The notes below the pieces were generated by a model that had not been told where the DNA came from, made no database searches, and saw nothing but the letters and a program-made list of their open reading frames with translations. Positions 4,183 through 51,613 of a stretch of DNA of 64,000 bases are shown piece after piece (the first letter of the stretch is position 1; every line of letters starts with the position of its first letter). The stretch is taken from assembly GCA_027923505.1 (NCBI GenBank), contig BROI01000014.1, positions 434,001 to 498,000 on the forward strand, written 5' to 3'. The position numbers and the translations under genes were made by a program. Source of the DNA: Mayamaea pseudoterrestris (taxonomy: Eukaryota > Bacillariophyta > Bacillariophyceae > Sellaphorales > Sellaphoraceae).

Positions 4183-4645
4183 ATGGAATTGATGAACGAA
4201 ACTGAGCCTATCAATATCAGCAAGACGGATCGTCTCGCAGCTTCGCTTGCTGAAAATTTACAAACACTACTTTGGGACTTAGACTGATTGCTTTGAATGC
4301 TGCAATACAGGACAATTCGATACATGCAAGCTTCTACAAGAGCAGGATCAAGCCTTGCTTGGTCAAGAGGCTGTTTGGCTGTCATGGTTGGGCGCGATCC
4401 ACGACTCGAGCAACGCGGGACACAACACGCGTCGCATCAGTACTCACGCGAGGCTCACACCATGGTCGAGTTTCATGCAAGGAAAACGACTTCCATCTTA
4501 CAACCTGCTGATGTGAAGCTAAAGTCGTTCCAAAAGAGACTATATAACAATGGAAGCAACCGTCTATTTAAGTTGCCGGTTGGTCAGACAAGATCGCATC
4601 TTGTCAAGGACGCCTCTTTGTCGATTAGCTCACTGTCAATTCAGA
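4183..4645. other. Intergenic, no gene seen
   Basis: This gap holds the upstream region of the DHH/CBS gene and the 3' end of FabG. Open frames on both strands are short, have no recognisable motif and look like noise. Confidence 0.6.
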
Positions 4646-12486: not shown

Positions 12487-12716
12487 GCTGTGTAGTTGTA
12501 TTACTGTCAATAAAGTAGCTCTATTGTATGCAAGTCCGTGATGAAGGTTGTGAGTGATTTGATGGTGCTTTCTTTCGGATTTGAAAGTCGATCGTCACGG
12601 CGCGGCGGTCATGGTCATTTTCGTCAATCGTGCGTGCCAGAAATGAACCTTAACTACAACATTGAAAGGCTACTTAGGGTTCTCGTCGTGACTTCGCGTT
12701 TCTCGCCTTCGCTGCC
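12487..12716. promoter_or_regulatory. Divergent upstream region (cysteine-rich gene / RBR ligase)
   Basis: Shared 230-base 5' region. It contains CGATCG at 12589-12594, the hexamer found in several other upstream regions here. Confidence 0.4.
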
Positions 12717-15700: not shown

Positions 15701-16913
15701 AAATGAAGCGCGAGAAGAAGGGGAAGATGTGGAAAAACATGACGACATTGCGCAAAAGCTTTGGCTGAAGACTAACACAAGGCCTTGCCCGAAGTGCAAA
15801 GCGCCCATTCAGAAGAATGAGGGATGTAATCACATGACATGCTCCAATCCACAATGCAAGTTTGAGTTCTGCTGGATTTGCCGCAACGATTGGAAGTTGC
15901 ACAGTTCCGAAACTGGTGGCTTCTTCCGTTGCAATCGCTGGGTGGAACAAAAGGAGCACGACGCTTACGATGAAGCTCCGACCGATACCGATGCCGCTCT
16001 GACAGCTTTGCAGGAAGCTATAACAGACCCACATGCCATGGCGAATACGTACGGCACAGCGATGCACGCCAGTCGCACTTTGCATAAAAAGAGCCGTGAC
16101 GTTGCCAGATTCATCCACCATTATCAGCGATGGAGCGCTCACGCGGAAAGCTGTGCGCTAGAGCAGCGTATGAGTGAAACTGTATGCACACGTTTGGCCC
16201 CAGTCATCCTGGAAGCGATTAAATACAGCGGGAAGCCATTTTTCAATTTCGGAGGAGGAGGAATTTCTTTCTTACATTCTGCATTTGTGGAATTAAAAGA
16301 ATGTCGAATTATGCTGCAACACAGCTATGCTTTCTCCTTCTACCGATACAAAGGCGGAAGCAAATACTACAAACAGATGAAGCGGCGATTGAACGAGAAA
16401 GCAGCCTTCGAACAAATGCAATCTGAACTTGAGCTCTTGACAGAGCAAATGAGCGACGTTGTTGCTCGGGCGCACCTGCGGGCTACTCAGTCACAGATTT
16501 TATTTCTCACTGCATCTGCAGCGGAACGGCGTGGAGAGTTTACAAAGCTAATGGTCGAAATTTTACACAAGGAGCGAAAAGAGTCGACGCATTCAAAGTC
16601 TAAAATTGATAGCAGGCGCCTCACCGGACAAAATGAAAGGAATGTGAGCTCGGCCGCGAACATTTTCGATGCCCTTGCAAACGCTGCTCGAAGCGATGTC
16701 AGACTTGTACTTGCACCCCAAGTTGATACTGACGATGACGACGATTTGGAGGAGGCCATTCGTGCAAGTTTGCGAGATTTTAGATCAGCTGACAACGCTT
16801 TCATTGACGACCTAGACTCAGCCGCTGAGCCAAGGGACTGGTCATGCGCTACTTGTACCTATGTTAACTCGGTAGGAAGGAGCTGCTCAATGTGCGGCAC
16901 TCGCCAACAGTAA
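12717..16913 (+). CDS. Ankyrin-repeat RBR E3 ubiquitin ligase (ANKIB1-like)
   Basis: Single-exon protein of 1,398 residues. Ankyrin repeats are seen at about 233-265 (TPLHEAARLGHLGLVE) and 422-455 (GRTALHYAAELGRTQVC). A RING1 starts near 803 (CLICCDEFE), followed by an IBR (FCFSCGEGNVHWPC) and RING2 (CPKCKAPIQKNEGCNHMTC). The Cys ending that motif, near 1041, is the expected thioester-forming residue. An Ariadne-like helical region follows, then a UIM-like segment (LEEAIRASL, about 1344) and a RanBP2-type zinc finger at the C-terminus (CATCTYVNSVGRSCSMC). Order and length match ANKIB1, an Ariadne-class ligase activated by neddylated cullins; the final zinc finger is an addition. RBR ligases take ubiquitin from E2 onto RING2. 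The central region (500-760) is acidic and disordered. Ends with TAA, 36 bases from the convergent CDC5L gene. Confidence 0.92.
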   Translation: MEQGSTRPSLEDSTDPNSLHPLISSLLLKLDMEDTEAAAAAAAIKHEIESTSDAVVLGSLRKHLWHALVSEDGDAALCVLKATRADWEAWKLKEILLKSRSNAKQTLSKRRLFSKKQSKTDEATHAPAAVVALTPTGIGPGLLQMHLNPTEPFALNDYRDFSDDQIVSSTILSQLTTPAAASKQRNISKRASPRQAFAWARHGRVTESSSFEQDMPDASIAVPADYLMSHSNMTTPLHEAARLGHLGLVECILQNSLVDVNARNGAGRTPLIMVAGGVTGRECIEFDGEGSSSDIANNPGAESNAGPTVLGIRKPQPVPLPAPPEDLQATPETSAKKATRAVRTFLRNTSERLKHNKSEEQSLATNQTSSQQSTLQHDSFLSNKLANSRMATAMAIINYSHPDDGTERFGQGPSMNSVDSILGRTALHYAAELGRTQVCQAIANSFGTMLTVVDDLSQTPMELAGRRNHKELAAYLEARALLYIDPYGMDEELLAAVEQRQQREQRKLSKSGDSGEHQQQYLALPFAWYETWSMVQVQTERSARLDRCLEAMRRVTRAKVQSEEARKNILVAADALQGEMPWLLDAVKRDDDESSDEDNDAKDKLPVAVNDSEEITAIETASKLINDSCETSSVPASGADDQSQKPAVIEHVSETFDEADGRLTDQDDVISPRSILGQLESEDHLISGEDDALSDTEAGEEDDDIDSSAAVNLPKIDADDVDSKKINLIASRTDYEVFDSIHKTHAELYLKHHKWDEKVAMKAFEEDPFTSFIEAGIHVPCGAVTFSVDLETENDAVTYESICLICCDEFEAQAPEFRRLTGCHHSFCSDCLGEFLSQCSSTRSTGLAILCPHHECSAPLSPVEIAELAPSLDVYESLLKAANEDFIATALDFRYCPHPGCEGIVKFNVPSFITSSDLNPNLLETVGAVCTEACVDHEGPCTYEGMSDANYCNAKSATQPSMAHRFCFSCGEGNVHWPCPCDRLEEWKAVIEERVNEAREEGEDVEKHDDIAQKLWLKTNTRPCPKCKAPIQKNEGCNHMTCSNPQCKFEFCWICRNDWKLHSSETGGFFRCNRWVEQKEHDAYDEAPTDTDAALTALQEAITDPHAMANTYGTAMHASRTLHKKSRDVARFIHHYQRWSAHAESCALEQRMSETVCTRLAPVILEAIKYSGKPFFNFGGGGISFLHSAFVELKECRIMLQHSYAFSFYRYKGGSKYYKQMKRRLNEKAAFEQMQSELELLTEQMSDVVARAHLRATQSQILFLTASAAERRGEFTKLMVEILHKERKESTHSKSKIDSRRLTGQNERNVSSAANIFDALANAARSDVRLVLAPQVDTDDDDDLEEAIRASLRDFRSADNAFIDDLDSAAEPRDWSCATCTYVNSVGRSCSMCGTRQQ

Positions 16914-21142: not shown

Positions 21143-21250
21143 GATCAGATCCGAAGAAGAAGCTGTCGCACCACAACTCGTCCGTTTCGTGTCACGCTCA
21201 TTCCTTCGATGTTCGACTCATAACGAGTCGAAACCCTTGACATTATCACC

Positions 21251-22609
21251 ATGCTGAAGGCATTGCATCGCAGCTGCAAAAGGCCACTTTTGCAGAGACA
21301 TGTCAATCGAACAGCAGGGATTCGCTGCTGGGCTTCGACGGAAAACAATACTATTCGAAAACTCATGGGCGAATCGCTCCAGCCACCAGCAGGCCAACTT
21401 TGGAAGGCAGTAGACAATCACATTGCAGCTGACAAGCAACTAGACCAATCATTTATTCCCCAAGTACCACTGCATCATCGCGACGGAAGACACCGAAAGC
21501 GAGTCCTTGTGCTTTGCACCGGCGGCACTCTTACCATGGCACCAGACCCAAAGCAAGGCGGTGCACTGGCGCCAGTGCAAGGCTCGCTGTCAAAGTATAT
21601 GCGGGAAATGAAGGAGCTCCAAAACGACGACATGCCGGAAGTGACACTTCACGAGTACGCGCCGTTTGTCGACTCCTCCGACCTTGGACCGGCCGATTGG
21701 GCGAGGCTGGCCCACGACATTTACGACAACTATCTGCACTTTGACGGCTTCGTCGTTATCACGGGGACGGATACCATGGCATACGGTGCAACCGCCCTAT
21801 CATTTATGCTTGAGAATCTTGGTAAACCAGTTGTGTTTACGGGAGGTCAGATTCCGCTATGCGAACCGTACAATGATGGACGTAACTTGATCATGGCATT
21901 GATCTTTGCGACTCGAGATTCCATCAATGAGGTGACAATTTTCTTTCACGATCGTTTACTGAGAGCATGTCGATCCACCAAGGTCAATACGCATCAGCTA
22001 TTAGCGTTTGACTCGCCGAATATTGATCCACTGGCAACGATTGGCATTACCATTGACGAGAACGAGCATCTGTTTCTGCCACCAGCCAAGGGTGCGCTGC
22101 GAGTTCATTCTCGCATGGAGACGCGCTTGCTCACGATTCGACTAGTTCCAGGCTTTGACGACGGCATGCTGACGCAAATGATCAAACACAATGTGGACAG
22201 CGAGTCACTCAAGGCACTTGTGTTGCAGTTATATGGAACTGGAAACCTTCCATCAAACAAGCATGCATTCATTCAACTGCTTGCGGATGCGAACGAAAAG
22301 GGCATCTTAGTGGTTGCAGCTACGCAGTGCTACACTGGCAACGTTCTAATGGGCCACTACGCTGTGGGCAAGGCGCTTGAAAGCGCTGGAGTGATTTCTG
22401 CGGGCGACATGACGGTCGAAGCCATTGCTGCCAAGGTTGGCTACTTGTATGGTCGCGGTGATTTGAGTCAGCAAGAGATTGCATCATTGTTTCCCGTGCC
22501 GCTGCGAGGAGAAGTGACTCCGAAGGAAGCCTTGTCGCCGCCGCCCCTCTCGAGTGCTTTTCAGCGAGGTATGAGCCAGCATGTCGGTGGTCGGTTCCGC
22601 TCCTACTGA
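21251..22609 (+). CDS. L-asparaginase (bacterial type I-like), copy 1
   Basis: Hydrolyses asparagine to aspartate and ammonia. The 452-residue single-exon protein has the two threonine catalytic blocks: LVLCTGGTLTM near residue 85 and TGTDTM near 170, the latter followed by AYGATALSFMLENLGKPVVFTGGQ. The first 28 residues are rich in Arg/Lys and lack acidic residues (MLKALHRSCKRPLLQRHVNR), suggesting a mitochondrial presequence. The C-terminal domain contains YGTGNLP. It is convergent with the LRR-like gene. The start is 88 bases inside the duplicated unit. Identical protein in copy 2. Ends with TGA. Confidence 0.92.
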   Translation: MLKALHRSCKRPLLQRHVNRTAGIRCWASTENNTIRKLMGESLQPPAGQLWKAVDNHIAADKQLDQSFIPQVPLHHRDGRHRKRVLVLCTGGTLTMAPDPKQGGALAPVQGSLSKYMREMKELQNDDMPEVTLHEYAPFVDSSDLGPADWARLAHDIYDNYLHFDGFVVITGTDTMAYGATALSFMLENLGKPVVFTGGQIPLCEPYNDGRNLIMALIFATRDSINEVTIFFHDRLLRACRSTKVNTHQLLAFDSPNIDPLATIGITIDENEHLFLPPAKGALRVHSRMETRLLTIRLVPGFDDGMLTQMIKHNVDSESLKALVLQLYGTGNLPSNKHAFIQLLADANEKGILVVAATQCYTGNVLMGHYAVGKALESAGVISAGDMTVEAIAAKVGYLYGRGDLSQQEIASLFPVPLRGEVTPKEALSPPPLSSAFQRGMSQHVGGRFRSY

Positions 22610-22956
22610 TCGGCATACCGACGAGACCGCATGAATGTGACATAAATTGCTGTGGAGTTGTTACAATGCCAGTCTTCAAGCTTACATGGGTGACAAGCTG
22701 CCAATTTAAGGGAGTAGACATGGAGGGAATGTCTGCATAGTTCTGCATCTTGAACCTTGGCCACTACCTATGGACTAATTAATCATGGCACTTAAATATT
22801 GCCCAGCATGTTGAAGGGGCCGTCTCCAAGATCAAGTGGTGTGCATATTGCTGGACTGACAAAAGCGGACGCGGCACAAAGTGCTTACAAAACAACAAAG
22901 CTAAATAAAATGGCAGTCCTAATGAATGTACTATAAACGTGACGTGTCTGACATAT
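22610..22956. other. Convergent 3' gap, no gene seen
   Basis: 347 bases between the stop codons of asparaginase and the LRR-like gene. Only short frames occur. An exact copy lies at 26851-27197. Confidence 0.6.
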
Positions 22957-24780
22957 TCATCGCTCAAATAGCACTGGTATATCATGCAGATGCAGATAGA
23001 CCAATTCCAGGTCACTATTAATCGTCGCCAAAAACTGGCACGCTTTCTGCCGGAAACCAGGTTCGTTCGCCTGCCTTATGTAGCGACGACCAAGGCAGTT
23101 TAAAAGCACGAATGAGAATACACTGCTTGATACGCGCAAATCGTCCGCTCCCGGACAGTGCCAAAGGTATATACATTCGAGAGTCAGATTAGCTGCAAGA
23201 GCATCAGTCAGGCGCTGATATGCTTGGTTGAAGGAATCGACTGTGCATCTTGGTCCTTTTCTCAGGCAACTGTGGTCCTGGCTACTCGCATCAGTAATGC
23301 ATTCGAGATGTTTCAAAGTCTGGTTCAGGCGCAAGGCATGCAAGACTTGACTGATAGTTTCAAGCGAAAAGTCCTCACTCGTCAGAAAGAGCCTTTCAAC
23401 CGACTGGTTCATTGCGACCCCTGCAGCGATTCCAATGATGTCTGAATCGGCAGTCAAAGTAAATTGAAGTTCTTTTAGTCTGCATCTGTTTAAAGCAGAC
23501 TTCAAGCAGATCAAAGCAGTTGAGCCAACACGCTCCCAAGTTCCCTTCACTTCCAATCTGCGTAAAGGTGTGGTCGCACTTAAATAGCTTGCCAGTAACG
23601 TCACCAAAGGGTCTGTCCAGGAGAAGTTGATTAGTCGGACATCATAAAGGCTTGAGGCACGCATTGCCCCACTCAGGATTGCGAGCTGGCATTGCTCACT
23701 GCCTACTCCCCCTGCGCCATCATTCTCCTGACGATCCCAGCTACAACCAAATGCAAGGGTCAGAGATTCGAGATCCTCCATTCGAGGCAAGCTTTGTCCA
23801 ATTGCTCCGTAAAATTCATTAGATCTTGCACCAAGGAAATAGTCGCCTAGGCGAAGCTCTTTCAATCTTAAAGAAACGGCGATTGAGTCGGACATCGTTG
23901 TCGACACCTCATTATCAGACAAAATCCAAGAGCATATGGCCAACCGCTCCAGCCGGTTCCGCTGAAAGAGTCGCGACAGCTCTAGAGCAACGGCTTTTGA
24001 AACAGGTTCCCTAACTCCCACGCCCATGCCCGACCCTTCCTGCCATGTAAAATCTACCATAGTCTCGACTTCTACAAGATGTCGAATGCACCTTTGATCA
24101 AAAAGATCATTTACTCGATCAAACGTGAAACTTTCGAGACGGTTCATCGACTCAATGTGACGCAAAAACACCGACGGAACGTATTGAGCGTCGGTAGATG
24201 TAATGGACACCACCAGCTTTCTGACATGCGGTATGAAGCGAATAAGTCTTGTATACGCTTCTTCCCTATCATTTGAGTCCACATGTGTATAGATGGTAAC
24301 GTCAGACAGGTGTTCGCAAAGACCAAAGGCACGTCCTAGGTCATCGAGACAGCGCAAAATCTCCGACACGTTGTCGTCATCCAAATAATCATCAAACAGA
24401 TAAGCAATATGTAAAGTTTTTAATGAAAACTTCCCTTTTGTTTCAATCGCGGTAATAAATTCTTGCCGAGCGGCTGATCTGTAGATAAGTGGAAGGAATA
24501 TCTCACTTAATGTGATGTTTCTGACATTTCCATTTTCCTCGAAGTGCCAAAGATAAGAAGCATTGCATTCCAAATAATCGCCATTTATCTTTTGGATAAG
24601 AGGTTTCAAGTTCGTTTCGTAAAGGCGATCAATGAAATCATCCCAGCCTTCGTCATCGTCCGACATCATCATGTTCGCATCTTCATCACTACCGTCATCG
24701 CTCGTATCGTCCTCGTCCCTGTCATCAACAGGATCGAAGAAATCGCCGCGGTTGATAATATCGTCGTTATTTTCTTCCAT
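22957..24780 (-). CDS. Leucine-rich-repeat-like protein, copy 1, unknown function
   Basis: Single-exon protein of 607 residues. The first 50 residues are strongly acidic (runs of D and E, then MMMSDDDEGW). The rest carries irregular leucine-rich units resembling the ribonuclease-inhibitor type, with spaced LxxLxL patterns such as LRRLEVKG, LKELQFTL and LKHLECIT. No catalytic motif, signal peptide or membrane helix is seen. A protein-interaction scaffold is likely; partners are unknown. Divergent from the truncated RING fragment at 25183. Protein identical to copy 2. Ends with TGA. Confidence 0.75.
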   Translation of the reverse strand: MEENNDDIINRGDFFDPVDDRDEDDTSDDGSDEDANMMMSDDDEGWDDFIDRLYETNLKPLIQKINGDYLECNASYLWHFEENGNVRNITLSEIFLPLIYRSAARQEFITAIETKGKFSLKTLHIAYLFDDYLDDDNVSEILRCLDDLGRAFGLCEHLSDVTIYTHVDSNDREEAYTRLIRFIPHVRKLVVSITSTDAQYVPSVFLRHIESMNRLESFTFDRVNDLFDQRCIRHLVEVETMVDFTWQEGSGMGVGVREPVSKAVALELSRLFQRNRLERLAICSWILSDNEVSTTMSDSIAVSLRLKELRLGDYFLGARSNEFYGAIGQSLPRMEDLESLTLAFGCSWDRQENDGAGGVGSEQCQLAILSGAMRASSLYDVRLINFSWTDPLVTLLASYLSATTPLRRLEVKGTWERVGSTALICLKSALNRCRLKELQFTLTADSDIIGIAAGVAMNQSVERLFLTSEDFSLETISQVLHALRLNQTLKHLECITDASSQDHSCLRKGPRCTVDSFNQAYQRLTDALAANLTLECIYLWHCPGADDLRVSSSVFSFVLLNCLGRRYIRQANEPGFRQKACQFLATINSDLELVYLHLHDIPVLFER

Positions 24781-25182
24781 AGTTAAGTCTGATTAGTATG
24801 AATGAACGTGTCGATTGTCAGCAAGAGCGAATGACCTTTGCTTGCTTGCTTCGCATTCGCATCGATGATGCGCATCATGCAAGAATCCTACCGGTACTCA
24901 ATGAGTAACGCTCCGACGCGTGAAATGGCGCGGCAGACATGGCGAAACCGTCGCGACGAAAGCAGTTACAAAGTCGGTTACCATGGAGGCGATTGCAATG
25001 AGCGTGGCAATGCCACCAAACAAATAACTGCCATTGTGTCTACTTTATAACGAGCATGAAAAGATCGTTACAAATGTGCCGAGATGCTGCCACAAAAAGC
25101 CGAGGACAACGGCCGCAGCGTGACAACATGCGAAAGAACGAATTAGCATCACCGTCGTTCGATATTCTGTAGCAGCACCATT
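24781..25182. promoter_or_regulatory. Divergent upstream region (LRR-like / RING), copy 1
   Basis: 402 bases between divergent starts, duplicated at 29022-29423. It has no CGATCG motif and no gene. In this copy the RING side drives only a truncated fragment. Confidence 0.4.
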
Positions 25183-25464
25183 ATGTCACTCCGTGGCAGT
25201 CATAGCAGCATAAACAGCAGCTCTCTCGAAAATCTGGCCTTTCGAGCTCTCCAATCCGATCCACGTGACGACTCGACATGGTTGATTCAATCCATTGTCG
25301 CACTGATTGCCTTGTTCTTTGTATTTAGCGTCTATCAGTTTGTTCTCAGTCGGTGCTGTCAAAAGTGTCTTGCGAACATTAGCACCAATGCTGACAATGC
25401 CGACTGTCGCACCACAACTCGTCCGTTTCGTGTCACGCTCATTCCTTCGATGTTCGACTCATAA
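25183..25464 (+). pseudogene. Truncated chimeric copy of the membrane RING gene
   Basis: The first 221 bases match the start of the RING gene at 29424 except for one base (25376 A, giving Asn for Ser). At 25404 the duplication junction switches to the sequence upstream of asparaginase copy 2. The open frame then runs 61 more bases to a stop at 25464, giving a 93-residue chimera. It keeps the membrane helix (SIVALIALFFVFSVYQF) but none of the RING domain. The stop lies 28 bases before the asparaginase ATG at 25492, so any transcript from its promoter would run into that gene. It is either a dead fragment or an upstream frame on an asparaginase transcript. Confidence 0.85.
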
Positions 25465-25491
25465 CGAGTCGAAACCCTTGACATTATCACC

Positions 25492-26850
25492 ATGCTGAAG
25501 GCATTGCATCGCAGCTGCAAAAGGCCACTTTTGCAGAGACATGTCAATCGAACAGCAGGGATTCGCTGCTGGGCTTCGACGGAAAACAATACTATTCGAA
25601 AACTCATGGGCGAATCGCTCCAGCCACCAGCAGGCCAACTTTGGAAGGCAGTAGACAATCACATTGCAGCTGACAAGCAACTAGACCAATCATTTATTCC
25701 CCAAGTACCACTGCATCATCGCGACGGAAGACACCGAAAGCGAGTCCTTGTGCTTTGCACCGGCGGCACTCTTACCATGGCACCAGACCCAAAGCAAGGC
25801 GGTGCACTGGCGCCAGTGCAAGGCTCGCTGTCAAAGTATATGCGGGAAATGAAGGAGCTCCAAAACGACGACATGCCGGAAGTGACACTTCACGAGTACG
25901 CGCCGTTTGTCGACTCCTCCGACCTTGGACCGGCCGATTGGGCGAGGCTGGCCCACGACATTTACGACAACTATCTGCACTTTGACGGCTTCGTCGTTAT
26001 CACGGGGACGGATACCATGGCATACGGTGCAACCGCCCTATCATTTATGCTTGAGAATCTTGGTAAACCAGTTGTGTTTACGGGAGGTCAGATTCCGCTA
26101 TGCGAACCGTACAATGATGGACGTAACTTGATCATGGCATTGATCTTTGCGACTCGAGATTCCATCAATGAGGTGACAATTTTCTTTCACGATCGTTTAC
26201 TGAGAGCATGTCGATCCACCAAGGTCAATACGCATCAGCTATTAGCGTTTGACTCGCCGAATATTGATCCACTGGCAACGATTGGCATTACCATTGACGA
26301 GAACGAGCATCTGTTTCTGCCACCAGCCAAGGGTGCGCTGCGAGTTCATTCTCGCATGGAGACGCGCTTGCTCACGATTCGACTAGTTCCAGGCTTTGAC
26401 GACGGCATGCTGACGCAAATGATCAAACACAATGTGGACAGCGAGTCACTCAAGGCACTTGTGTTGCAGTTATATGGAACTGGAAACCTTCCATCAAACA
26501 AGCATGCATTCATTCAACTGCTTGCGGATGCGAACGAAAAGGGCATCTTAGTGGTTGCAGCTACGCAGTGCTACACTGGCAACGTTCTAATGGGCCACTA
26601 CGCTGTGGGCAAGGCGCTTGAAAGCGCTGGAGTGATTTCTGCGGGCGACATGACGGTCGAAGCCATTGCTGCCAAGGTTGGCTACTTGTATGGTCGCGGT
26701 GATTTGAGTCAGCAAGAGATTGCATCATTGTTTCCCGTGCCGCTGCGAGGAGAAGTGACTCCGAAGGAAGCCTTGTCGCCGCCGCCCCTCTCGAGTGCTT
26801 TTCAGCGAGGTATGAGCCAGCATGTCGGTGGTCGGTTCCGCTCCTACTGA
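25492..26850 (+). CDS. L-asparaginase, copy 2
   Basis: The 452-residue protein is identical to that of 21251-22609, with the same catalytic blocks (CTGGTLTM and TGTDTM) and the same basic presequence. Only the last 88 bases of the original 5' flank are kept. Upstream of that lies the truncated RING fragment instead of the sulfotransferase gap, and the GCGATCGC motif present before copy 1 is missing. Expression of this copy is therefore likely to differ, or to depend on the RING promoter at 24781-25182. Confidence 0.92.
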   Translation: MLKALHRSCKRPLLQRHVNRTAGIRCWASTENNTIRKLMGESLQPPAGQLWKAVDNHIAADKQLDQSFIPQVPLHHRDGRHRKRVLVLCTGGTLTMAPDPKQGGALAPVQGSLSKYMREMKELQNDDMPEVTLHEYAPFVDSSDLGPADWARLAHDIYDNYLHFDGFVVITGTDTMAYGATALSFMLENLGKPVVFTGGQIPLCEPYNDGRNLIMALIFATRDSINEVTIFFHDRLLRACRSTKVNTHQLLAFDSPNIDPLATIGITIDENEHLFLPPAKGALRVHSRMETRLLTIRLVPGFDDGMLTQMIKHNVDSESLKALVLQLYGTGNLPSNKHAFIQLLADANEKGILVVAATQCYTGNVLMGHYAVGKALESAGVISAGDMTVEAIAAKVGYLYGRGDLSQQEIASLFPVPLRGEVTPKEALSPPPLSSAFQRGMSQHVGGRFRSY

Positions 26851-27197
26851 TCGGCATACCGACGAGACCGCATGAATGTGACATAAATTGCTGTGGAGTT
26901 GTTACAATGCCAGTCTTCAAGCTTACATGGGTGACAAGCTGCCAATTTAAGGGAGTAGACATGGAGGGAATGTCTGCATAGTTCTGCATCTTGAACCTTG
27001 GCCACTACCTATGGACTAATTAATCATGGCACTTAAATATTGCCCAGCATGTTGAAGGGGCCGTCTCCAAGATCAAGTGGTGTGCATATTGCTGGACTGA
27101 CAAAAGCGGACGCGGCACAAAGTGCTTACAAAACAACAAAGCTAAATAAAATGGCAGTCCTAATGAATGTACTATAAACGTGACGTGTCTGACATAT
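26851..27197. other. Convergent 3' gap, copy 2, no gene seen
   Basis: Repeat of 22610-22956. Nothing further is seen. Confidence 0.6.
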
Positions 27198-29021
27198 TCA
27201 TCGCTCAAATAGCACTGGTATATCATGCAGATGCAGATAGACCAATTCCAGGTCACTATTAATCGTCGCCAAAAACTGGCACGCTTTCTGCCGGAAACCA
27301 GGTTCGTTCGCCTGCCTTATGTAGCGACGACCAAGGCAGTTTAAAAGCACGAATGAGAATACACTGCTTGATACGCGCAAATCGTCCGCTCCCGGACAGT
27401 GCCAAAGGTATATACATTCGAGAGTCAGATTAGCTGCAAGAGCATCAGTCAGGCGCTGATATGCTTGGTTGAAGGAATCGACTGTGCATCTTGGTCCTTT
27501 TCTCAGGCAACTGTGGTCCTGGCTACTCGCATCAGTAATGCATTCGAGATGTTTCAAAGTCTGGTTCAGGCGCAAGGCATGCAAGACTTGACTGATAGTT
27601 TCAAGCGAAAAGTCCTCACTCGTCAGAAAGAGCCTTTCAACCGACTGGTTCATTGCGACCCCTGCAGCGATTCCAATGATGTCTGAATCGGCAGTCAAAG
27701 TAAATTGAAGTTCTTTTAGTCTGCATCTGTTTAAAGCAGACTTCAAGCAGATCAAAGCAGTTGAGCCAACACGCTCCCAAGTTCCCTTCACTTCCAATCT
27801 GCGTAAAGGTGTGGTCGCACTTAAATAGCTTGCCAGTAACGTCACCAAAGGGTCTGTCCAGGAGAAGTTGATTAGTCGGACATCATAAAGGCTTGAGGCA
27901 CGCATTGCCCCACTCAGGATTGCGAGCTGGCATTGCTCACTGCCTACTCCCCCTGCGCCATCATTCTCCTGACGATCCCAGCTACAACCAAATGCAAGGG
28001 TCAGAGATTCGAGATCCTCCATTCGAGGCAAGCTTTGTCCAATTGCTCCGTAAAATTCATTAGATCTTGCACCAAGGAAATAGTCGCCTAGGCGAAGCTC
28101 TTTCAATCTTAAAGAAACGGCGATTGAGTCGGACATCGTTGTCGACACCTCATTATCAGACAAAATCCAAGAGCATATGGCCAACCGCTCCAGCCGGTTC
28201 CGCTGAAAGAGTCGCGACAGCTCTAGAGCAACGGCTTTTGAAACAGGTTCCCTAACTCCCACGCCCATGCCCGACCCTTCCTGCCATGTAAAATCTACCA
28301 TAGTCTCGACTTCTACAAGATGTCGAATGCACCTTTGATCAAAAAGATCATTTACTCGATCAAACGTGAAACTTTCGAGACGGTTCATCGACTCAATGTG
28401 ACGCAAAAACACCGACGGAACGTATTGAGCGTCGGTAGATGTAATGGACACCACCAGCTTTCTGACATGCGGTATGAAGCGAATAAGTCTTGTATACGCT
28501 TCTTCCCTATCATTTGAGTCCACATGTGTATAGATGGTAACGTCAGACAGGTGTTCGCAAAGACCAAAGGCACGTCCTAGGTCATCGAGACAGCGCAAAA
28601 TCTCCGACACGTTGTCGTCATCCAAATAATCATCAAACAGATAAGCAATATGTAAAGTTTTTAATGAAAACTTCCCTTTTGTTTCAATCGCGGTAATAAA
28701 TTCTTGCCGAGCGGCTGATCTGTAGATAAGTGGAAGGAATATCTCACTTAATGTGATGTTTCTGACATTTCCATTTTCCTCGAAGTGCCAAAGATAAGAA
28801 GCATTGCATTCCAAATAATCGCCATTTATCTTTTGGATAAGAGGTTTCAAGTTCGTTTCGTAAAGGCGATCAATGAAATCATCCCAGCCTTCGTCATCGT
28901 CCGACATCATCATGTTCGCATCTTCATCACTACCGTCATCGCTCGTATCGTCCTCGTCCCTGTCATCAACAGGATCGAAGAAATCGCCGCGGTTGATAAT
29001 ATCGTCGTTATTTTCTTCCAT
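27198..29021 (-). CDS. Leucine-rich-repeat-like protein, copy 2
   Basis: The 607-residue protein is identical to that of 22957-24780: an acidic N-terminus followed by ribonuclease-inhibitor-like LRR units. Its full upstream region is retained, so both copies should be expressed alike. Function unknown. Confidence 0.75.
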   Translation of the reverse strand: MEENNDDIINRGDFFDPVDDRDEDDTSDDGSDEDANMMMSDDDEGWDDFIDRLYETNLKPLIQKINGDYLECNASYLWHFEENGNVRNITLSEIFLPLIYRSAARQEFITAIETKGKFSLKTLHIAYLFDDYLDDDNVSEILRCLDDLGRAFGLCEHLSDVTIYTHVDSNDREEAYTRLIRFIPHVRKLVVSITSTDAQYVPSVFLRHIESMNRLESFTFDRVNDLFDQRCIRHLVEVETMVDFTWQEGSGMGVGVREPVSKAVALELSRLFQRNRLERLAICSWILSDNEVSTTMSDSIAVSLRLKELRLGDYFLGARSNEFYGAIGQSLPRMEDLESLTLAFGCSWDRQENDGAGGVGSEQCQLAILSGAMRASSLYDVRLINFSWTDPLVTLLASYLSATTPLRRLEVKGTWERVGSTALICLKSALNRCRLKELQFTLTADSDIIGIAAGVAMNQSVERLFLTSEDFSLETISQVLHALRLNQTLKHLECITDASSQDHSCLRKGPRCTVDSFNQAYQRLTDALAANLTLECIYLWHCPGADDLRVSSSVFSFVLLNCLGRRYIRQANEPGFRQKACQFLATINSDLELVYLHLHDIPVLFER

Positions 29022-29423
29022 AGTTAAGTCTGATTAGTATGAATGAACGTGTCGATTGTCAGCAAGAGCGAATGACCTTTGCTTGCTTGCTTCGCATTCG
29101 CATCGATGATGCGCATCATGCAAGAATCCTACCGGTACTCAATGAGTAACGCTCCGACGCGTGAAATGGCGCGGCAGACATGGCGAAACCGTCGCGACGA
29201 AAGCAGTTACAAAGTCGGTTACCATGGAGGCGATTGCAATGAGCGTGGCAATGCCACCAAACAAATAACTGCCATTGTGTCTACTTTATAACGAGCATGA
29301 AAAGATCGTTACAAATGTGCCGAGATGCTGCCACAAAAAGCCGAGGACAACGGCCGCAGCGTGACAACATGCGAAAGAACGAATTAGCATCACCGTCGTT
29401 CGATATTCTGTAGCAGCACCATT
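29022..29423. promoter_or_regulatory. Divergent upstream region (LRR-like / RING), copy 2
   Basis: Repeat of 24781-25182. This is the ancestral setting, between the LRR-like gene and the intact RING gene. No gene is seen. Confidence 0.4.
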
Positions 29424-30904
29424 ATGTCACTCCGTGGCAGTCATAGCAGCATAAACAGCAGCTCTCTCGAAAATCTGGCCTTTCGAGCTCTCCAATCCGA
29501 TCCACGTGACGACTCGACATGGTTGATTCAATCCATTGTCGCACTGATTGCCTTGTTCTTTGTATTTAGCGTCTATCAGTTTGTTCTCAGTCGGTGCTGT
29601 CAAAAGTGTCTTGCGAGCATTAGCACCAATGCTGACAATGCCGATGATGAGGAATCTGGTGCAGCTGCAAATGCCAACAAGATCTTTGCACTTTCGGATA
29701 ATCAAAGACGAGCCGTACTGGAAGCAATCTACGCGGAAAACAGCAAATTAGCCAAGGATCTTGGACTTCTTGCAAAACCTCAAGAGCAAGACAAGCATCA
29801 GCTAAAGCTACCTGATGGACAAGTTACCAAGGCCGCAATGCGCGCTGGACAGCCGGAGACTTGTCCGAGAAGCGAAGATGATCAGTCAGAATCGGACTCC
29901 ACTTGCATCGAAGTCAGATTGAGATCGAGCAACATCACTTCCGCGAAATCCCTGGAAGATCATACACATACGACTACTCAGGAGCACCTGCTGCATCCGT
30001 CAACTTCATCAGATACACCGGCTGCTATAAACGCGGATGATGGGGACCACCATGCCGTTCTTCCTGCAGTCCATGCAGACGAGAAAACTGCTGAAAACCA
30101 TGTCAACGCAGACGGGCCTTTGCATCACGATCGCAAACCTACCGATACCCATTCCGCTTCGACGCTACCGTATTTTAACTGCTGCCAGGAAGATGATTTA
30201 TCAAATCTCGCCAATGCGTCAAGCACGGACATTCAATTTCCAGTCGACATTTTTGACGCAGAAGGAGTAGTTGCTGAGCAAGTTTCACCATCGTACTCTA
30301 CTGTGACAGCATTGTCAAACACCGATGCATCATCAGTTATTGAAGAAGACGAAATTGCGACTGGAGATGATATATGGTACGTTTACCGTGCCCGCACTGG
30401 AGTACTGTACATACCATACGTTTGCCGTTTGACTCATGGCCCCTCCTTTGGTTTCGCAGTTCCATCTGTTTGAGCGGCTACGTGACACGGGATCTTTTGA
30501 CCACGTCAAAGCATTGCTCGCATGTGTTCCATAAGGTACGACCTGGTAGGGGAAGCATACGTAACAACTTGAACGGCAGCTTGACGCTAAAGTCAACTTA
30601 AATTTTATCTCCCTTGCATCTCTCATTACAGGATTGCATTATGGAGTGGCTGCAAAAGAATGACGACTGCCCCATTTGCCGAACCCGCATGGTGACCGCG
30701 TCGGAAGTCAGTCAAGCGGCTTCGACATTAGTTGGAAAAACGCGCATGGTTAGAGCGGTGGCTGCGTCTGTTGCCACTCAGCAGCAGAGAAGGCCTTCTG
30801 CTCCCTCTCGACGAATCCAAAGGGGCTCGTCGTCCAATATTCAAGCGCATGTTACCCCGCTGAGTGGAACGGTCCTAAGATCAGTGTCAATTACCTTTAC
30901 TTGA
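29424..30904 (+). CDS. Membrane-anchored RING-H2 E3 ubiquitin ligase, paralogue A
   Basis: Three exons (29424-30376, 30460-30535, 30632-30904; introns GTACGT...GCAG and GTACGA...ACAG) give 433 residues. One membrane helix lies near residues 30-50 (STWLIQSIVALIALFFVF). A conserved block LSDNQRRAVLEAIYAENSK follows at about 90-108. A long polar linker leads to the RING-H2 finger, split over the exons: CSICLSGY, then KHCSHVFHK, then DCIMEWLQKNDDCPIC. All eight zinc ligands (C3H2C3) are present after splicing. Such proteins ubiquitinate membrane or luminal-pathway targets; the substrate is unknown. Its 5' end is duplicated in the truncated fragment at 25183, and a paralogue lies 423 bases downstream. 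Confidence 0.87.
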
Positions 30905-36355: not shown

Positions 36356-36356
36356 G

Positions 36357-36434
36357 TGACTGGGACGGGATTCGAACCCGCGCCCAAAGACAACGGCCTT
36401 AACGTTGCGCCTTAGACCACTCGGCCACCCAGTC
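36357..36434 (-). tRNA. tRNA-Leu (anticodon AAG)
   Basis: A 78-base cloverleaf. The acceptor stem GACTGGG pairs with CCCAGTC, with discriminator A. The D arm is GCCGAGTGGTCTAAGGC (A box). The anticodon arm is CAACG-TTAAGGC-CGTTG, giving AAG. The T arm contains GGTTCGAATCC (B box). No intron is seen and CCA is not encoded. The variable region has only nine bases (TCTTTGGGC), shorter than the long arm usual for leucine tRNAs. A Pol III terminator follows. Confidence 0.93.
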
Positions 36435-42298: not shown

Positions 42299-45200
42299 AT
42301 GCGCGAACTGAAGGTGGAGGATGCCCTCCTCTATCTCGACCAGGTCAAGGTTGAGTTTGGAGACCAGCCACACATATACAATGCATTTTTGGACATTATG
42401 AAGACGTTCAAGACGCAGCAGATTGACACGCCAGGAGTCATTCGTCGCGTGTCGGATCTTTTCCAAGGAAACCCACGCCTCGTGCTTGGCTTCAACACTT
42501 TTTTGCCGGAAGGCTACAAGATTGAGTTGCCGGACGGAGATGGTCCGGCCATTGCCGTCTACCGCGCGCCTGGATCCAACGTGACGCACGTTTTGACGGA
42601 AGGAGTGCCGCACCATCCAGCGCCGCCTCTACCTCAACAGCAGCAGCAACTTGCTCCGCCCATGGCAGCGTCGCAACTGCAGAGACCTCAGCCAGCGAGA
42701 CAGTATTCGTCTGTCATGTTGCCGCAGTCCCATGCGCGACCCAATTTGCCGCCGATGCAGCAGCAGCCGCCCATGGATCATCAGCAAGCCGCGCAGCAAA
42801 AGATTGCAGCCATTGCACAGCCTCCTCCTCCGCCTGCTGCTGCTGGACCACCGCCAGCAGCTGCACATGATGTTTCTGGCGGCTCACCACCTGCAGCGGC
42901 GGCGTCAACGCGTAACTATGAGGAGCAGCAGCAACAGCAACAGCAACAAGGTTCGCCGCAGCAAGGTCCGCTCGAGTTTGACCACGCCATTTCCTACGTG
43001 ACGACGATCAAGAAGCGATTTGCACATGAACCATATACGTACAAAAAGTTTCTCGAGATTCTACACACGTATCAAAAGGAGCAACGAGGTATCAAGGAGG
43101 TTTTGGACGAGGTGTCGGCCCTCTTTGCGGATCATCCAGACTTGTTGAAGGAATTCACCTACTTTTTGCCGGATACGGTGCAGGCGCAAGCCAAGACGCA
43201 GCTTGACGCGGCCGCCAAGGAAGCGGAGGAGCGAAAGCGATTGCGGCAAGCCAAAGCGTCTCGCGCGGGTCCGTCGCCAGTGCAGGCGCAGCAGCACTTT
43301 CGCGAGGATGCCATGATGCGCGATGCAAATCAGCCGCGGTCCTCTCCTCCCGAGTATGATCGAACCGCGCCACCGCCGCAACCATTTACGCAGCATGGAC
43401 GTACTCCGGAGCAGGAGCATGAAATTATTAGGAGCGCTCGGTATGGAATTGTTTCGTTTGCACCGATCAAACCACCTCGAAAGAATGAACTGGCGCCAGC
43501 GCAAGCTGTCATGAAGAAGGGTCGACCAGCGACAATTCCAGAGCAACCTTACGTTCCAAATACGTTGGAACTTGCCTTTTTTCAGCGCGCCAAGGCTCAC
43601 TTCCAGCGCCGTGAGTTGCAACCGGAGAAACCATCCAGCAACAAGCGCCACACGCCCTTTACGGAATTTCTCAAATGCCTTCACTTATTTGGCGCTGGTA
43701 TTTTGAGCAAAGAAGAACTACTTCCACTACTAAAGAGTCTTTTGATGCATGGACATGCACCCAAGACGACTGCGGCGAACGTTTCGCCCGCGATTGTACG
43801 AGAAGGCAATGAGCTCCTGCGCGACTTTGAGGAGCTTTTGCGTGGTCGAGGACCGTTTGCAGGGCAGGAGACATATATGAAGGATAAGTCAAAGTATGGC
43901 GGCTTGAGGACCCGCGATTTTGATCTAGATAGTTGCGAGCATCCAACTCCGTCTTACTGGACATATCCCAGCGACTATCCGCAGAATTTGTTTCTTTCGA
44001 ACACGGCACAGTCCGACGAAGATCGCTCTGTTTTAAACAACGCAGTCTTTATCTTCGGTCAGAAAGTGGACGACAACAAGTCTATCAACAGTTCGCTGGC
44101 GTCTTACGACGCGAGTCGAGCGCGACGCAACGCCTATGAAGAGACCTTGTTTCGCATTGAGGACGAGCGATTTGAGGTGGATATGGCGATTGAACGTAAC
44201 TTTCAGGCAATGCGACAGATCGAGCCACTGGCGGAGGAAGTGCAGGCTCTACGAGAGCAGGAAGAAAAGGATCGACAGCCAATTGGGCGTCTGCAATACC
44301 AGTTAAATCGGCATGCTTTGAATACAATTCACATTAATGCGGTTGGCCGCCTATATGGCGACAAGGGCGACGAAGTACTTCAACATCTTGCAGAAAATCC
44401 GTACATTGTTCTTCCGATTGTTTTCCAGCGGTTGAAGCAAAAGGACGCGGAATGGAGGAGTATCAAGAACGAACTGCAGGCTGGCTGGGCCGCGCTTCAA
44501 GCTGCCAATTATGAAGGATCATTGGATCTGCTCTGCGGGGCCAACAGAAGAGAATTAGAGCGTCGCTTTTCAACTGCCATGCTTGAAGACGAGTGTAAAC
44601 GAGCTCGAACCTATTGCAGATATCCCGAGCGAGTCAAGCATAGCTCGATAACAGATCCATTTTATCCGACGTTTGCCATGAGCTGCTCGGACCCCGGCGC
44701 ATTGCTCTATCAGCCATACTCTATCGTCTCTTGTGCTATAGACGCGACACACAAGGACGCAATGCGATTGATCATGGATTTTGTGGGTTTGAATCACAAA
44801 ATAAAGGCGTTTGATCGGGAGCGTATTGGCCGAATCTGGGCCGAATTTATGGTACCTTGGTTTGGATATCCAGTCCAATGGGTGGCGGAAGAAGTTCGCA
44901 AGAGTTTTGGCGGCAAAATGAGTCCAGGTATTGTGAAATGTAAGTTCATTGTTATAATTTCGAGTCAGTTTGTTCGTTTGCAATGGCTGACATTATTGCT
45001 TGGCACGTCAAACAGTCGTCGCAGGCCAACGCGTCATGACCATATTCGGTGAAGGATTCATCCTTACTTTCCAGGATTCTCAAGGCGGCGTTAATGGTCC
45101 GAAATATCGAGTCAAACTTCCTTTTGCGACTGCATACCTGTCGCCAAGCGCCATTCTCTTTGCAATTGCCGTGAAAGATCAGCCGTATGTTCGACGTGAT

Positions 45201-45926
45201 GGAGTAATGGCTCGAGAGGAGTCATTTTTGAACCGAAGTCCTACTTCAGCGAGTCAGAAGCTTGACCCGCGATACAAGCTTCTTTTTGGAACCGACAATA
45301 TTTATTTGTTTATCCGCCAGTATACTCTGGTCTGCTCCGTTTTGGCCAGCACCCGGCTACATCAGGAAAGCCTCAACGACCCACCAATAAAGTACAGCAA
45401 CAGCGTGCGAAAGACTTCGACGCCCGATATTACACCAACGAAAGTAGATTACGCGACGGTGTTTTCCGCTTTGAGAAAGGTTCTTTTGAAGAAGATGGAC
45501 TCTAGAGATTTTGAGTCCCTGGCGCGACGACTCACAAAGACTCACGTACACGAGTTTGCCGCGCTTCCAAAACTGATTGAACGATGTGCTGAAACTCTCA
45601 TTTTGACAGCCAAGGAAGACTGCCTCTTACATCTTTATGACTATTGCAAATATAGTCAGGCGGATCCAGTTGTCGTACGAACTCGGTGTTTTGCGGTTGC
45701 GTCGGAAGCGGCGTACAGGATCCAATACGACTTAAAGGCAAAGGCGCTGTATTTTAACTACCTGCCCAAGTCGGTTGATCTGTTGTCCGTTCCTCGCCAC
45801 GATGATGACCGGATAGAGGATTATGATGGCCAAGACTCGGCTGACATTCCAATGGAGGTTGATGATCCAATCCAAGATGCTGACGACTCTGAAGATCGAC
45901 CAAACAAGCGATTGCGAGTGGACTAG
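42299..45926 (+). CDS. SIN3: SIN3 transcriptional corepressor scaffold
   Basis: Scaffold of the Sin3-histone deacetylase complex. Exons 42299-44939 and 45016-45926 (intron GTAAGT...ACAG) give 1,183 residues. The first paired amphipathic helix domain opens the protein (LKVEDALLYLDQVKVEFG). A Gln/Pro/Ala-rich linker with runs of Q follows. PAH2 is at about 220-295 (FDHAISYVTTIKKRFAHEP...LFADHPDLLKEFTYFLP). The HDAC-interaction domain begins near 540 (YGGLRTRDFDLDSCEHPTPS). In the C-terminal half, GQRVMTIFGEGFILTF...YRVKLPF...LSPSAIL looks like a small beta-barrel insert. A tiny first exon with ATG at 41930 is possible. The tail is acidic. Ends with TAG. Confidence 0.9.
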
Positions 45927-45992: not shown

Positions 45993-46755
45993 TCATGCCC
46001 ATTCAACTCTCAAACCCGCCATCATAAAGTGCCGTTGTAAGCGTTGCGCAATCTCCAACTTGACAGAACTGAGACTAGCACTCGAGCCTTCCATCTTTAG
46101 CCATATTGTAGGTTGCAACCCATCAACGCCTTCAATGCGATCAGTGAAAATAGTTCCTCCTGCCACTTGCAAAAATGGTCGAACACCTTCCAGTATAACT
46201 TCCACTTGTTCCTCATTGAGAGGAGGACCTTCCGGCATGCTTTGCACAACCTCCTGGATTTCCGGAATCTTCTCCTTCAAGCCACGCTCCAAACCCATCT
46301 TCATGGTTTGCGTAGAGGACGGACATGTTCCGCATGCACCCTGTAATGCGATTGTTGCGAAATGTAAGCGTGCATGTGATAAATGGTTTGCTCACGTTTG
46401 CACTACAACGTACCTGCAGCTCCAGCCTGACAACCGGTCCATCAATCTCCTTGATTGCCACATTTCCTCCATCCTGAATCAAGAATGGTCGCATTTCATC
46501 CAACACCTTTTCAACATTGTCCCATGTCAGCTCTAATGGACCTTCGGAGGAACCTGTTCCTGATGAACCGCCGTTGCCCGACTCGTCAAACGGCGAAACG
46601 ATCACTGCGTCTTGGTCAGTGCTGCTACTGCTACTAGTAATTACAGTAAGAGTATGCAATCGCCTTGCTGGTAGCGGCGTAATAAAGCATGCTGCCGACG
46701 AAATACATAGGGCGACTGCTGTTAGCAGCAAGGTTTGCTGTGATTGAACCCTCAT
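45993..46755 (-). CDS. Plastid Nfu-type iron-sulfur cluster scaffold
   Basis: Carries Fe-S clusters to target proteins. Exons 46755-46414 and 46340-45993 (intron GTACGT...TACAG) give 229 residues. The leader is a signal peptide ([20 protein letters not shown]) with an aromatic residue at the predicted cleavage site, then a Ser/Thr-rich transit region, pointing to the plastid. The first Nfu domain contains [19 protein letters not shown] and, across the intron, [10 protein letters not shown] with the cluster-binding CxxC. A second, degenerate Nfu domain lacks CxxC ([11 protein letters not shown]). One active plus one degenerate domain is the known layout of plastid NFU1-3. Ends with TGA. Confidence 0.9.
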
Positions 46756-46982
46756 GGTGACGAATGAATGGAACGATGGTGGAAACGGAGAGAGAACATT
46801 GAGTAACGCTGCGACTATCGGCTTTCGTCATGTCTCACACAGTTAGTTAGCTACGGAGTATATCTGAGCGAGCTATTTATGCTTGCATCGAATAGAATGC
46901 TATGCATAGCAAGCCAACGATCTTCACGTTGTAAAAAGTGACCGGAGTACGAGTATATGAAACAGTGTCTACTGTACATCGA

Positions 46983-48284: not shown

Positions 48285-48650
48285 GCTGCAAGATTTGTCG
48301 TGCAAGTTAGAAGAGGCGAGGACAAGCGAAATTGAGTGGGTTGAGCAATTCATCGGATCGATCGCTTCGATCGGCCGTCCGTCATTTTTTTGGTCGTGCG
48401 TCACGCGCGACGGTGATTGCGGTGCGACAGTTAGCAAACGCTTGCGAGCAGGAAGACGTTTTCACCTCGGCAGATCGACCATGGGACATTCTTTGAGGTG
48501 CGAGACGATCATAAAACAGAAACAGCTCTAGAAGCTATCGCCGGATCAATACATGCACCCTATTGCAACTAATATACAGAATACATATGGTACAAGACTC
48601 GTCACGCTAACTAAGCAGTCAGCGATCTTGATTGGTTAAATACGTTTGAC

Positions 48651-50486
48651 ATGACCTTGTCGGCGTCGCCCTTTTTGCGCAAGCCAATCTACATTGTTCG
48701 CCTGCAGCAGCTGCAGCAAAAAGGAGGAGGAGGAGGAGGAGGAGGAGGAGGAGGACTCGAAGACGAAAACACTAATCAAAGCACTAATCAAACTCATCGT
48801 CACTTGTCGCTGCTTGACTTACTCGTGATTGGCGTGGGCGGCACCGTCGGAAGTGGCTTGTTTGTGCTGACGGGTCAGATTGCGTCACACTACGCGGGCG
48901 CCAGCACCTACATTAGTTTCGCCACGGCCGGACTGGCTGCTACGACGAGTGGATTGTGCTTTGCGGAACTATCGGGTCGGTTGCCCGTGGCGGGCAGTAC
49001 CTACGTGTATGCGCACGTATGTTTGGGGGAATTGGCAGCCGTCCTGGCGGCGGCGTGCTTGACGCTGGAGTATGCCGTATCGGGGGCGGCTGTTGCGCGG
49101 AGCTGGGGCGATAAAGTGAGTGAATTCATAGCCGCGATGCGAAATGCAGACGTTGCAGCGACTGCGAATGAGCAAGCAACAGAGGAGCAATCAGTCAGTA
49201 TCGTCAATCTACCTGCCTTTTTGGTCAGTTCCATTGCCACAATACTATTACTTGCTGGAGTGAACGAAAGCAAGTCTGTCACCAATATTATTACAGCCTT
49301 CAAAATGTCCATTGTCGCTTTCATGACGGTCGGAGGTTTCGTCCTGTTTCAGCGCCAAAACATGACACCGCTCGCCCCCTTCGGATTTCAGGGTGTTGCG
49401 CGAGGGGCAACCACCTCCTTCTTTGGCTACTTGGGCTTTGACGAAGTCTGCTGCGTGGCTTCCGAGGCGCTGCATCCGGAGCGCGACATGCCGCGCGCCG
49501 TGATTGGGACACTTGTCATTGTGACTTGCTGCTACATTGTGGCGAGTGTGGCACTGACCGGCATGCTACCCTATGACGAAATTAGCGCAACGTCGGGCTT
49601 TCCAGCAGCCTTTTACGCGCGGGGAGTATCTTGGGCTGGTACTTTTACAGCCATTGGCGAAATTGTGACGCTACCAGTCGTGGTGATTATCTCGCTCATG
49701 GCGCAACCGCGACTGCTGTCTTCCATGGCACAGGACGGACTGCTGCCGCCTATGCTCGGCAAAACTGATGACAAGGGAAACTTATTTGGAGCTACAGCAG
49801 TAGCTGGCGTTTTCATGACTCTGCTTGCGACTTTTGTGCCATTTACGTACCTGAATGACTTGGTCAGTGCAGGCATACTTGTTGCCTTTTGCATGACATG
49901 TTCCTGCTTGGTGCTGCTTCGATGCGAGTCGCCAGCCGGAAAGACTAAAGTTGTAGAGTACTGTTTGGCGCTTTACAACGCAACTTGCTTCGTTGCGGCA
50001 ATACTCTGGAGCCATGAAATTTGGTGGCTTCCACTGCAACGGCTCTGGGCGTCGCTTTTGACGCTGGCAATGATTGGCAGCGTCGTTTACATGGCCACGA
50101 CTTGCCCCAGATCCGCTCAGTTTGGGGGATCAATTTTGTCGAGCGAAGGTTCTACGTACACATCCTCTATATCCTACTTTCAAACTCCACTCGTTCCATA
50201 TTTGCCGTGCATTGGCATGGCAATCAATTGGTATCTCATTGCACAGCTCGACGCATCGGGAATACTCTTCTTGGTACTCTACCTCGGAGCGACCGCTGCG
50301 ATGTACATGTGGCAATGTGCACCCCGCTCCGTCGGCCACCGGTCGCAGTGGACTGCAGCCATGTCATCATCATATCATGGTTTGAGTCACGGCGATGACG
50401 GAGATCAAAATGAACATGACGATCAAATTGAGCTGAAAGAGTATGCAGTTACATCTACAAACGAAATATCAGGGGTTTTGTCGTGA
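48651..50486 (+). CDS. Amino-acid/polyamine permease (APC superfamily, CAT-like)
   Basis: Transporter of 611 residues with 12 or more predicted helices. The first helix carries GVGGTVGSGLFVLTG, the substrate-binding glycine motif of the APC fold. FCFAELSGRLPVAGSTYVY-type sequence (CFAELSGRLPVAGSTYVYAH) and FFGYLGFDEVCCVASEA are CAT (cationic amino acid transporter) blocks. The cytosolic N-terminus holds an 11-glycine run from a GGA repeat at about 48722-48755, likely to vary in length between strains. The C-terminal tail is polar and acidic. Substrate is probably basic amino acids; this is inferred from the subfamily. Ends with TGA. Confidence 0.87.
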   Translation: MTLSASPFLRKPIYIVRLQQLQQKGGGGGGGGGGGLEDENTNQSTNQTHRHLSLLDLLVIGVGGTVGSGLFVLTGQIASHYAGASTYISFATAGLAATTSGLCFAELSGRLPVAGSTYVYAHVCLGELAAVLAAACLTLEYAVSGAAVARSWGDKVSEFIAAMRNADVAATANEQATEEQSVSIVNLPAFLVSSIATILLLAGVNESKSVTNIITAFKMSIVAFMTVGGFVLFQRQNMTPLAPFGFQGVARGATTSFFGYLGFDEVCCVASEALHPERDMPRAVIGTLVIVTCCYIVASVALTGMLPYDEISATSGFPAAFYARGVSWAGTFTAIGEIVTLPVVVIISLMAQPRLLSSMAQDGLLPPMLGKTDDKGNLFGATAVAGVFMTLLATFVPFTYLNDLVSAGILVAFCMTCSCLVLLRCESPAGKTKVVEYCLALYNATCFVAAILWSHEIWWLPLQRLWASLLTLAMIGSVVYMATTCPRSAQFGGSILSSEGSTYTSSISYFQTPLVPYLPCIGMAINWYLIAQLDASGILFLVLYLGATAAMYMWQCAPRSVGHRSQWTAAMSSSYHGLSHGDDGDQNEHDDQIELKEYAVTSTNEISGVLS

Positions 50487-50555: not shown

Positions 50556-51613
50556 TCATGGCGGATAAATGACATGTTTCAGCAGCACTTGCTTCTCATG
50601 CGTTACGCCATGCTCGTCCGCGTCGTCAAAGAAATGAACAGTGACCAAGGCATTGTTGCTAGCGGCTGCTGTCTTTCGCGGCGCCTGCACGACGGTTGCC
50701 TGATAAAACGAAGTCGTCTCGGGGTAGACGGCATATATTGTATCACCTTTCTTCAAGCTATCAATCTGCCCACTGAGTATCACTTGCTCCTCTGGGAGTT
50801 GAAAGACTGGGAATGGGAGATCGCAGGAAAGCAGTTTCATGAGTGACGTTGTTTCACATGAACGATTGTAACGGCGAGCTGTACGAGCTTCCTTGCTCAA
50901 ATTCAATGCACATACCTTTGTTGCTTTCCGTGTCCTCATCAGCGACTGTGTATAGACCAGTTGCAGTGTCAAAACCCAATATCTTGGACAAAATCCACTC
51001 GGACCCGGGAGTCGGCTGGCAAGCAGCCAACTCGTTGATTTGTCCGACAACCTTCGTCTGAAAGCCTCCGTTCGACTGCGTAACAGACCATAAACCAAAC
51101 GATTAGTCCAAAATACTAAAAAATCTTGCGAGCATGAGTTTCCTTTGCATGAAGTTTGTATTGAGTACGCACCTGTAAAAGCTTTTCCATGGCTTCCAAG
51201 TCACGCTCGAGGCGTTGCACAGTGACATCGACCATTTCGTAGGCCTGCTGCGCGACTGATACTTTTTCGTCCGATTTTTGCATCGTCTCCTCCTGTAAAT
51301 GTTTAATTTCGCGATACATGTCTTCATCGTACGTGTAATCCATCATTTCCAGTGTGGTCGGCATGATGATTTCCTCGCCGTTGAGCGTTCGCACGCCCGT
51401 CTCTCCGTTTGGTTGCTGGTACACAATTTCCAGATCCAGAACTTTCGCCTCTGCCTGCTTGATATATTCTTGATGCAGATAACGCATGCGCTCGCTGTCG
51501 ACTGTGCAGGACGAGTCAAGGTCACGCAAAAGATCCATGTTTCGTCGAACTTGGTGTGGGAGTGTCGAAAGTGTCTCCATAAAGGCTTCTAAATATGTTT
51601 CTTCGCTAGACAT
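50556..51613 (-). CDS. ING-domain protein fused to an SGF29-type tandem Tudor domain
   Basis: Three exons (51613-51173, 51075-50916, 50878-50556) give 307 residues. Residues 1-147 match the ING N-terminal domain: YLEAFMETLSTLPHQVRRN at the start and SDEKVSVAQQAYEMVDVTVQR at the end. ING proteins normally continue to a PHD finger that reads H3K4me3. Here the second exon instead opens the SGF29 tandem Tudor (VGQINELAACQPTPGSEWIL) with the acidic ADEDTE patch. The third carries YAVYPETTSFYQA and VHFFDDADE, holding the Tyr, Tyr and Phe that form the methyl-lysine cage in human SGF29. SGF29 reads H3K4me3 in SAGA. The first intron is 97 bases (GTGCGT...GCAG); the second only 37 (GTATGT...ACAG). Role as an acetyltransferase-complex reader is inferred. 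Ends with TGA. Confidence 0.8.

Follow-up and report, generated by a model that had tools for sequence, protein, structure and literature searches.

The 64,000-nt window (the whole stretch of DNA analysed here) contains a three-exon gene model on the minus strand (51613-50556) that yields a spliced protein of 283 residues, in which an N-terminal ING domain is joined to an SGF29-type tandem Tudor. Both domains, joinable exons and the conserved binding residues are present, and no PHD finger was detected in the protein; what we infer from the sequence is that the exons are spliced in the cell and that the protein binds H3K4me3, dimerises and belongs to a complex. On balance, we lean towards a single gene for a chimeric chromatin reader, that is, a subunit of an ING-type complex that would recognise H3K4me3 via a Tudor pair rather than a PHD finger. 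Because both domains score far over their cut-offs, lie on one strand and occupy joinable frames, their combination is not a product of chance.

The ING part is encoded by exon 1 (51173-51613; residues 1-147), which includes the start codon and was assigned by Pfam and phmmer. Searched alone, this exon matches the Pfam ING profile PF12998 with an E-value of 5.5e-17 and 62.6 bits, more than twice the curated score (cut-off 23.9), which bears out the 147-residue ING N-terminal domain noticed in an earlier, sequence-only reading of this DNA. The match falls into two stretches, which by our own division are separated by an insert of ~36 residues (61-96) that could alter docking. The best phmmer matches in the PDB were the N-terminal domains of ING5 and ING4 (E-values 1.2e-7, 1.9e-7 and 2.3e-7), with ING3 far weaker (E-value 0.2). 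A single-sequence AlphaFold2 model of exon 1 placed helices at the anticipated positions (residues 3-35, 41-60, 97-111 and 117-146) and gave the insert short strands, at a confidence (mean pLDDT 55.3) too poor to support the fold. An upstream in-frame ATG at 51727, in the context CACCATGG, would add 38 residues to the ING protein, and the choice of start codon between 51613 and 51727 is uncertain.

Residues 169-280 of the spliced protein match SGF29_Tudor (PF07039; E-value 2.1e-17, 63.8 bits, cut-off 23.8), confirming the claim that both halves of an SGF29 double Tudor follow the ING domain after splicing. The first half, with D193 and D195, is encoded by exon 2 (50916-51075; assigned by Pfam and by alignment with human SGF29), and the second half, with Y228, Y235, F259 or F260 and the following Asp, by exon 3 (50556-50806), which ends in the stop codon. 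Searched separately against the same profile, the exon 3 stretch 50804-50556 gave an E-value of 2.8e-12 (47.2 bits), and the stretch 51075-50859, comprising exon 2 and some of intron 2, an E-value of 0.0048 (17.4 bits, below the cut-off). Human SGF29 was matched in the PDB by phmmer with E-values of 1.7e-4 to 2.4e-4, and the exon 3 motif YPETTSFY aligns with YPQTTCFY of the human and YPETTTFY of the yeast protein.

According to PMC4589357, the K4me3 cage of human SGF29 consists of Y238, Y245, F264 and D266, and H3A1 is bound via a negatively charged pocket. In the phmmer alignment, Y228 and Y235 of the fusion protein correspond to the human cage tyrosines Y238 and Y245. D193 and D195 correspond to human D194 and D196 (numbered by counting from Y238), which we take to be the H3A1-pocket residues. 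The human SGF29 alignment stops at 245, and the third cage aromatic lies past its end; alignments with yeast Sgf29 pair F260 with F and D261 with D, and manual placement of F259 with D261 fits the human SGF29 spacing, leaving D261 or D262 as the candidate acid. The aromatic and the acid of the cage are kept under the F259 and F260 readings alike. As judged from these alignments, the residues that form the H3K4me3 cage and the H3A1 pocket in human SGF29 are thus conserved in the fusion protein, in agreement with the Tyr/Tyr/Phe cage and acidic patch described previously.

The domain boundary coincides with intron 1 (51076-51172), a 97-nt, phase 0 intron (GTGCGT...ACGCAG) placed by its frame-keeping join. 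Exon 1 is open over 147 codons and reaches the donor as CAG/GTGCGT, and exon 2 continues in phase 0 after the acceptor ACGCAG, so that this intron stands as originally proposed, with GT-AG borders and the frame kept. Since 97 mod 3 = 1, exon 2 occupies a genomic frame other than that of exon 1, and an unspliced intron 1 would end the ING frame 18 residues further on. With this donor, acceptors at a distance of 115 and 157 nt would likewise preserve the frame, and four frame-keeping candidates per intron remain in a scripted scan, from which introns shorter than 38 nt, including the 37-nt 50915-50879, were left out by design. That 37-nt interval had been put forward as intron 2, probably wrongly; we prefer 50807-50915 (109 nt, GTATGT...TCCCAG, phase 1), mainly because of its length and its pyrimidine-rich acceptor CTCCCATTCCCAG, since the Tudor scores are barely apart (63.8 bits with the 109-nt intron versus 62.4 bits with the 37-nt one). 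The shorter intron would leave 24 additional residues inside the Tudor; both versions keep the frame and give an identical domain architecture. The 97 and 109 nt of the fusion gene are close to the intron lengths inferred from the sequence of three neighbouring genes, for each of which we chose short candidates: 76 or 85 nt in SIN3 (2 of 4 candidates), 92 nt in CAP (the shortest of 10) and 74 nt in phenylalanine hydroxylase (the shorter of 2). A frameshift or pseudogene was set aside, all three exons being open and the frame being restored exactly.

Could the two domains nonetheless come from neighbouring genes, one encoding ING alone and the other a truncated SGF29-like protein, that merely look spliced together? 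The exon 1 ORF does run 18 residues into intron 1 before its stop, and the second Tudor half is contained in two unspliced ORFs, one of 127 residues from an ATG at 50939 and one of 94 residues from an ATG at 50840, from either of which a half-Tudor product may be made. The gap, however, is just 97 nt, the exon junction restores the frame exactly, and the intron lengths are near those inferred next door. Moreover, of the 13 ATGs between 51172 and the stop codon, the five in the exon 2 frame open ORFs of only 15, 10, 19, 1 and 1 residues; none opens the full Tudor frame, and translation of a complete Tudor from this region would therefore require exons not seen here. A separate gene for the whole Tudor is accordingly unlikely, and we consider the two-gene arrangement as a whole very improbable. 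Even less probable, in our view, is that two genes were joined by an assembly error. The window does hold a perfect 4213-bp tandem repeat (21163-29616), itself perhaps an artefact, but this lies ~21 kb from the fusion gene, and a misjoin would need to have hit a 97-nt intron with its splice signals intact and its phase matching.

A PHD finger was sought in several ways. For the spliced protein, Pfam at E-values up to 1 returned only ING and SGF29_Tudor, the domain search that had been proposed as a check thus giving both domains above their cut-offs, and the protein has 2 Cys in its 283 residues. One hand-made PHD pattern gave zero matches in the six unspliced frames of the whole window and, the fusion apart, no PHD, ING or SGF29 match was found by Pfam in the 27 ORFs searched among the window's 41 of at least 200 residues. 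On the 3′ side, the fusion gene is bounded by a convergent amino-acid permease ORF (48615-50486, plus strand; AA_permease_2, E-value 9.5e-41) that ends 69 nt from the fusion stop codon, so that no PHD finger could fit in between. The earlier proposal that the PHD finger had been swapped for another reader is therefore sustained as regards its components, an ING scaffold with an SGF29 Tudor and without a detected PHD finger; "replacing" goes further, since replacement of the SGF29 coiled coil by an ING domain would give the same architecture, and the exchange may have run in either direction.

A SIN3 homologue is indeed located ~5 kb away (42299-45926, plus strand), as two ORFs joined by an inferred intron, the first matching the PAH repeats (E-value 5.9e-40) and Sin3_corepress (1.2e-13) and the second giving no Pfam match. 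The caution that this linkage may be chance was well placed: the genes adjoining the fusion (permease, TLC-domain, NifU-like and histidine phosphatase, by Pfam) have no evident chromatin tie, so that the linkage is weak evidence and was set aside as a functional argument.

Several other features of the window were recorded. The two copies of the tandem repeat (21163-25375 and 25404-29616, spacing 4241) each contain an asparaginase gene and an ORF of 611 residues that gave no Pfam match; they are 100% identical, which suggests that the duplication either happened very recently or is an artefact of the assembly. The NifU-like ORF (46213-46827, minus strand) and an ORF at 1657-4257 (minus strand) with DHH phosphoesterase, EF-hand and two CBS stretches (DHHA1 below the cut-off), identified by Pfam, begin with hydrophobic N-termini followed by SAACFITP in one and STSAWITP in the other. 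These presumably resemble the plastid-targeting ASAFAP motif known from photosynthetic stramenopiles and would fit a stramenopile origin, although this is only a hint. An ORF of 1411 residues (12678-16913, plus strand) combines ankyrin repeats, IBR and Ariadne matches, with RING matches below the cut-off. The only tRNA gene found in the window, tRNA-Leu(AAG) (36356-36434, minus strand), overlaps the 5′ end of a stop-to-stop ORF with an ACT domain.

If the fusion protein is a subunit of an ING-type complex, the helical bundle of its ING domain would dimerise or dock on the scaffold of a histone-modifying complex (MYST acetyltransferase or Sin3/HDAC), and the H3 tail would be bound by the C-terminal tandem Tudor, with H3A1 entering the acidic pocket of the first Tudor and K4me2/3 the aromatic cage of the second. 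The complex would thereby be brought to active promoters, which is the job of the PHD finger in ordinary ING proteins. ING1 and ING2 are described as recruiting the Sin3A HDAC complex and ING3-5 as recruiting HATs (PMC6896041), and ING4 and ING5 as dimers, held together by the ING domain, that read H3K4me3 bivalently with two PHD fingers (PMC7072245). Should the ING part dimerise as in ING4/ING5, the result would be a two-headed H3K4me3 reader.

The protein might instead be the lineage's own SGF29, a subunit of the SAGA HAT module and not of an ING-type complex, in which an ING domain packing on ADA3/ADA2 constitutes, or has taken the place of, the N-terminal coiled coil. Its Tudor is specifically of the SGF29 type, and known SGF29 is a member of the SAGA/ATAC HAT module together with ADA2, ADA3 and GCN5 (PMC3720948). 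We take this as a possible but doubtful identity, given that the N-terminus scores as ING at 62.6 bits, that yeast Sgf29 gave no ING match, and that complex membership is assumed to be set by the docking part. The yeast comparison is a single control, in which Pfam matched SGF29_Tudor, Tudor_3 and Agenet and no ING at E-values up to 10, with HMMER filters dropping most matches above an E-value of ~0.1; residues 113-259 of the control sequence equal PDB 3mp1 bar one residue, and its residues 1-97 are provisional. To the extent that a single example is informative, SGF29 proteins do not generally match ING. The sequence-only reading had gone on to link SAGA-type with NuA4/Sin3-type complexes in one subunit. 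One domain from each family is present, as would be expected of a subunit that SAGA and an ING-type complex share or that bridges them, but we found nothing in direct support, the HAT-module docking part of SGF29 is unrecognised in the fusion protein, and we judge such a role quite improbable. Less far-fetched, though still unlikely, is that the fusion replaces both the ING-PHD protein and SGF29 with one docking mode, or that it shows a common origin of the N-terminal helices of SGF29 and ING. Were both replaced, one subunit would supply H3K4me3 reading to acetyltransferase (perhaps also deacetylase) complexes that elsewhere rely on separate readers.

Both ING and the SGF29 Tudor are known domains, and their combination appears undescribed among the literature matches listed, although it may already show in InterPro or UniProt architectures. 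Searches for relatives, for which the Tudor alignment, exon 1 and the whole spliced product served as queries, confirmed none in viral contigs (6, 43 and 9 pattern matches) or in genome contigs (20 and 16 pattern matches); these collections are not eukaryotic, and the result is silent on the spread of the fusion. The ING-PHD and SGF29-Tudor modules are two unrelated solutions for H3K4me3 reading, and a natural exchange of readers on one scaffold, if true, would mean that the reader module is interchangeable and that the docking module fixes complex identity. The fusion would thus offer a ready-made test of the separate contributions of docking and reading and, if lineage-wide, would bear on the diversification of SAGA and ING-type complexes in lineages other than animals, fungi and plants.

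Compared with known systems, the chimeric reader resembles ING4 and ING5 in its N-terminal ING domain, in which the YEMVD..RL..DL motif is kept, but differs from them in the ~36-residue insert within that domain and in having an SGF29 Tudor pair as the reader in place of a detected PHD finger. With human SGF29 and yeast Sgf29 it shares the tandem Tudor (28% identity to the yeast domain), including the aspartates of the H3A1 pocket and the residues of the K4me3 cage. It differs from SGF29 in its ING-like N-terminus; SGF29-type proteins dock in the HAT module through an N-terminal coiled coil.
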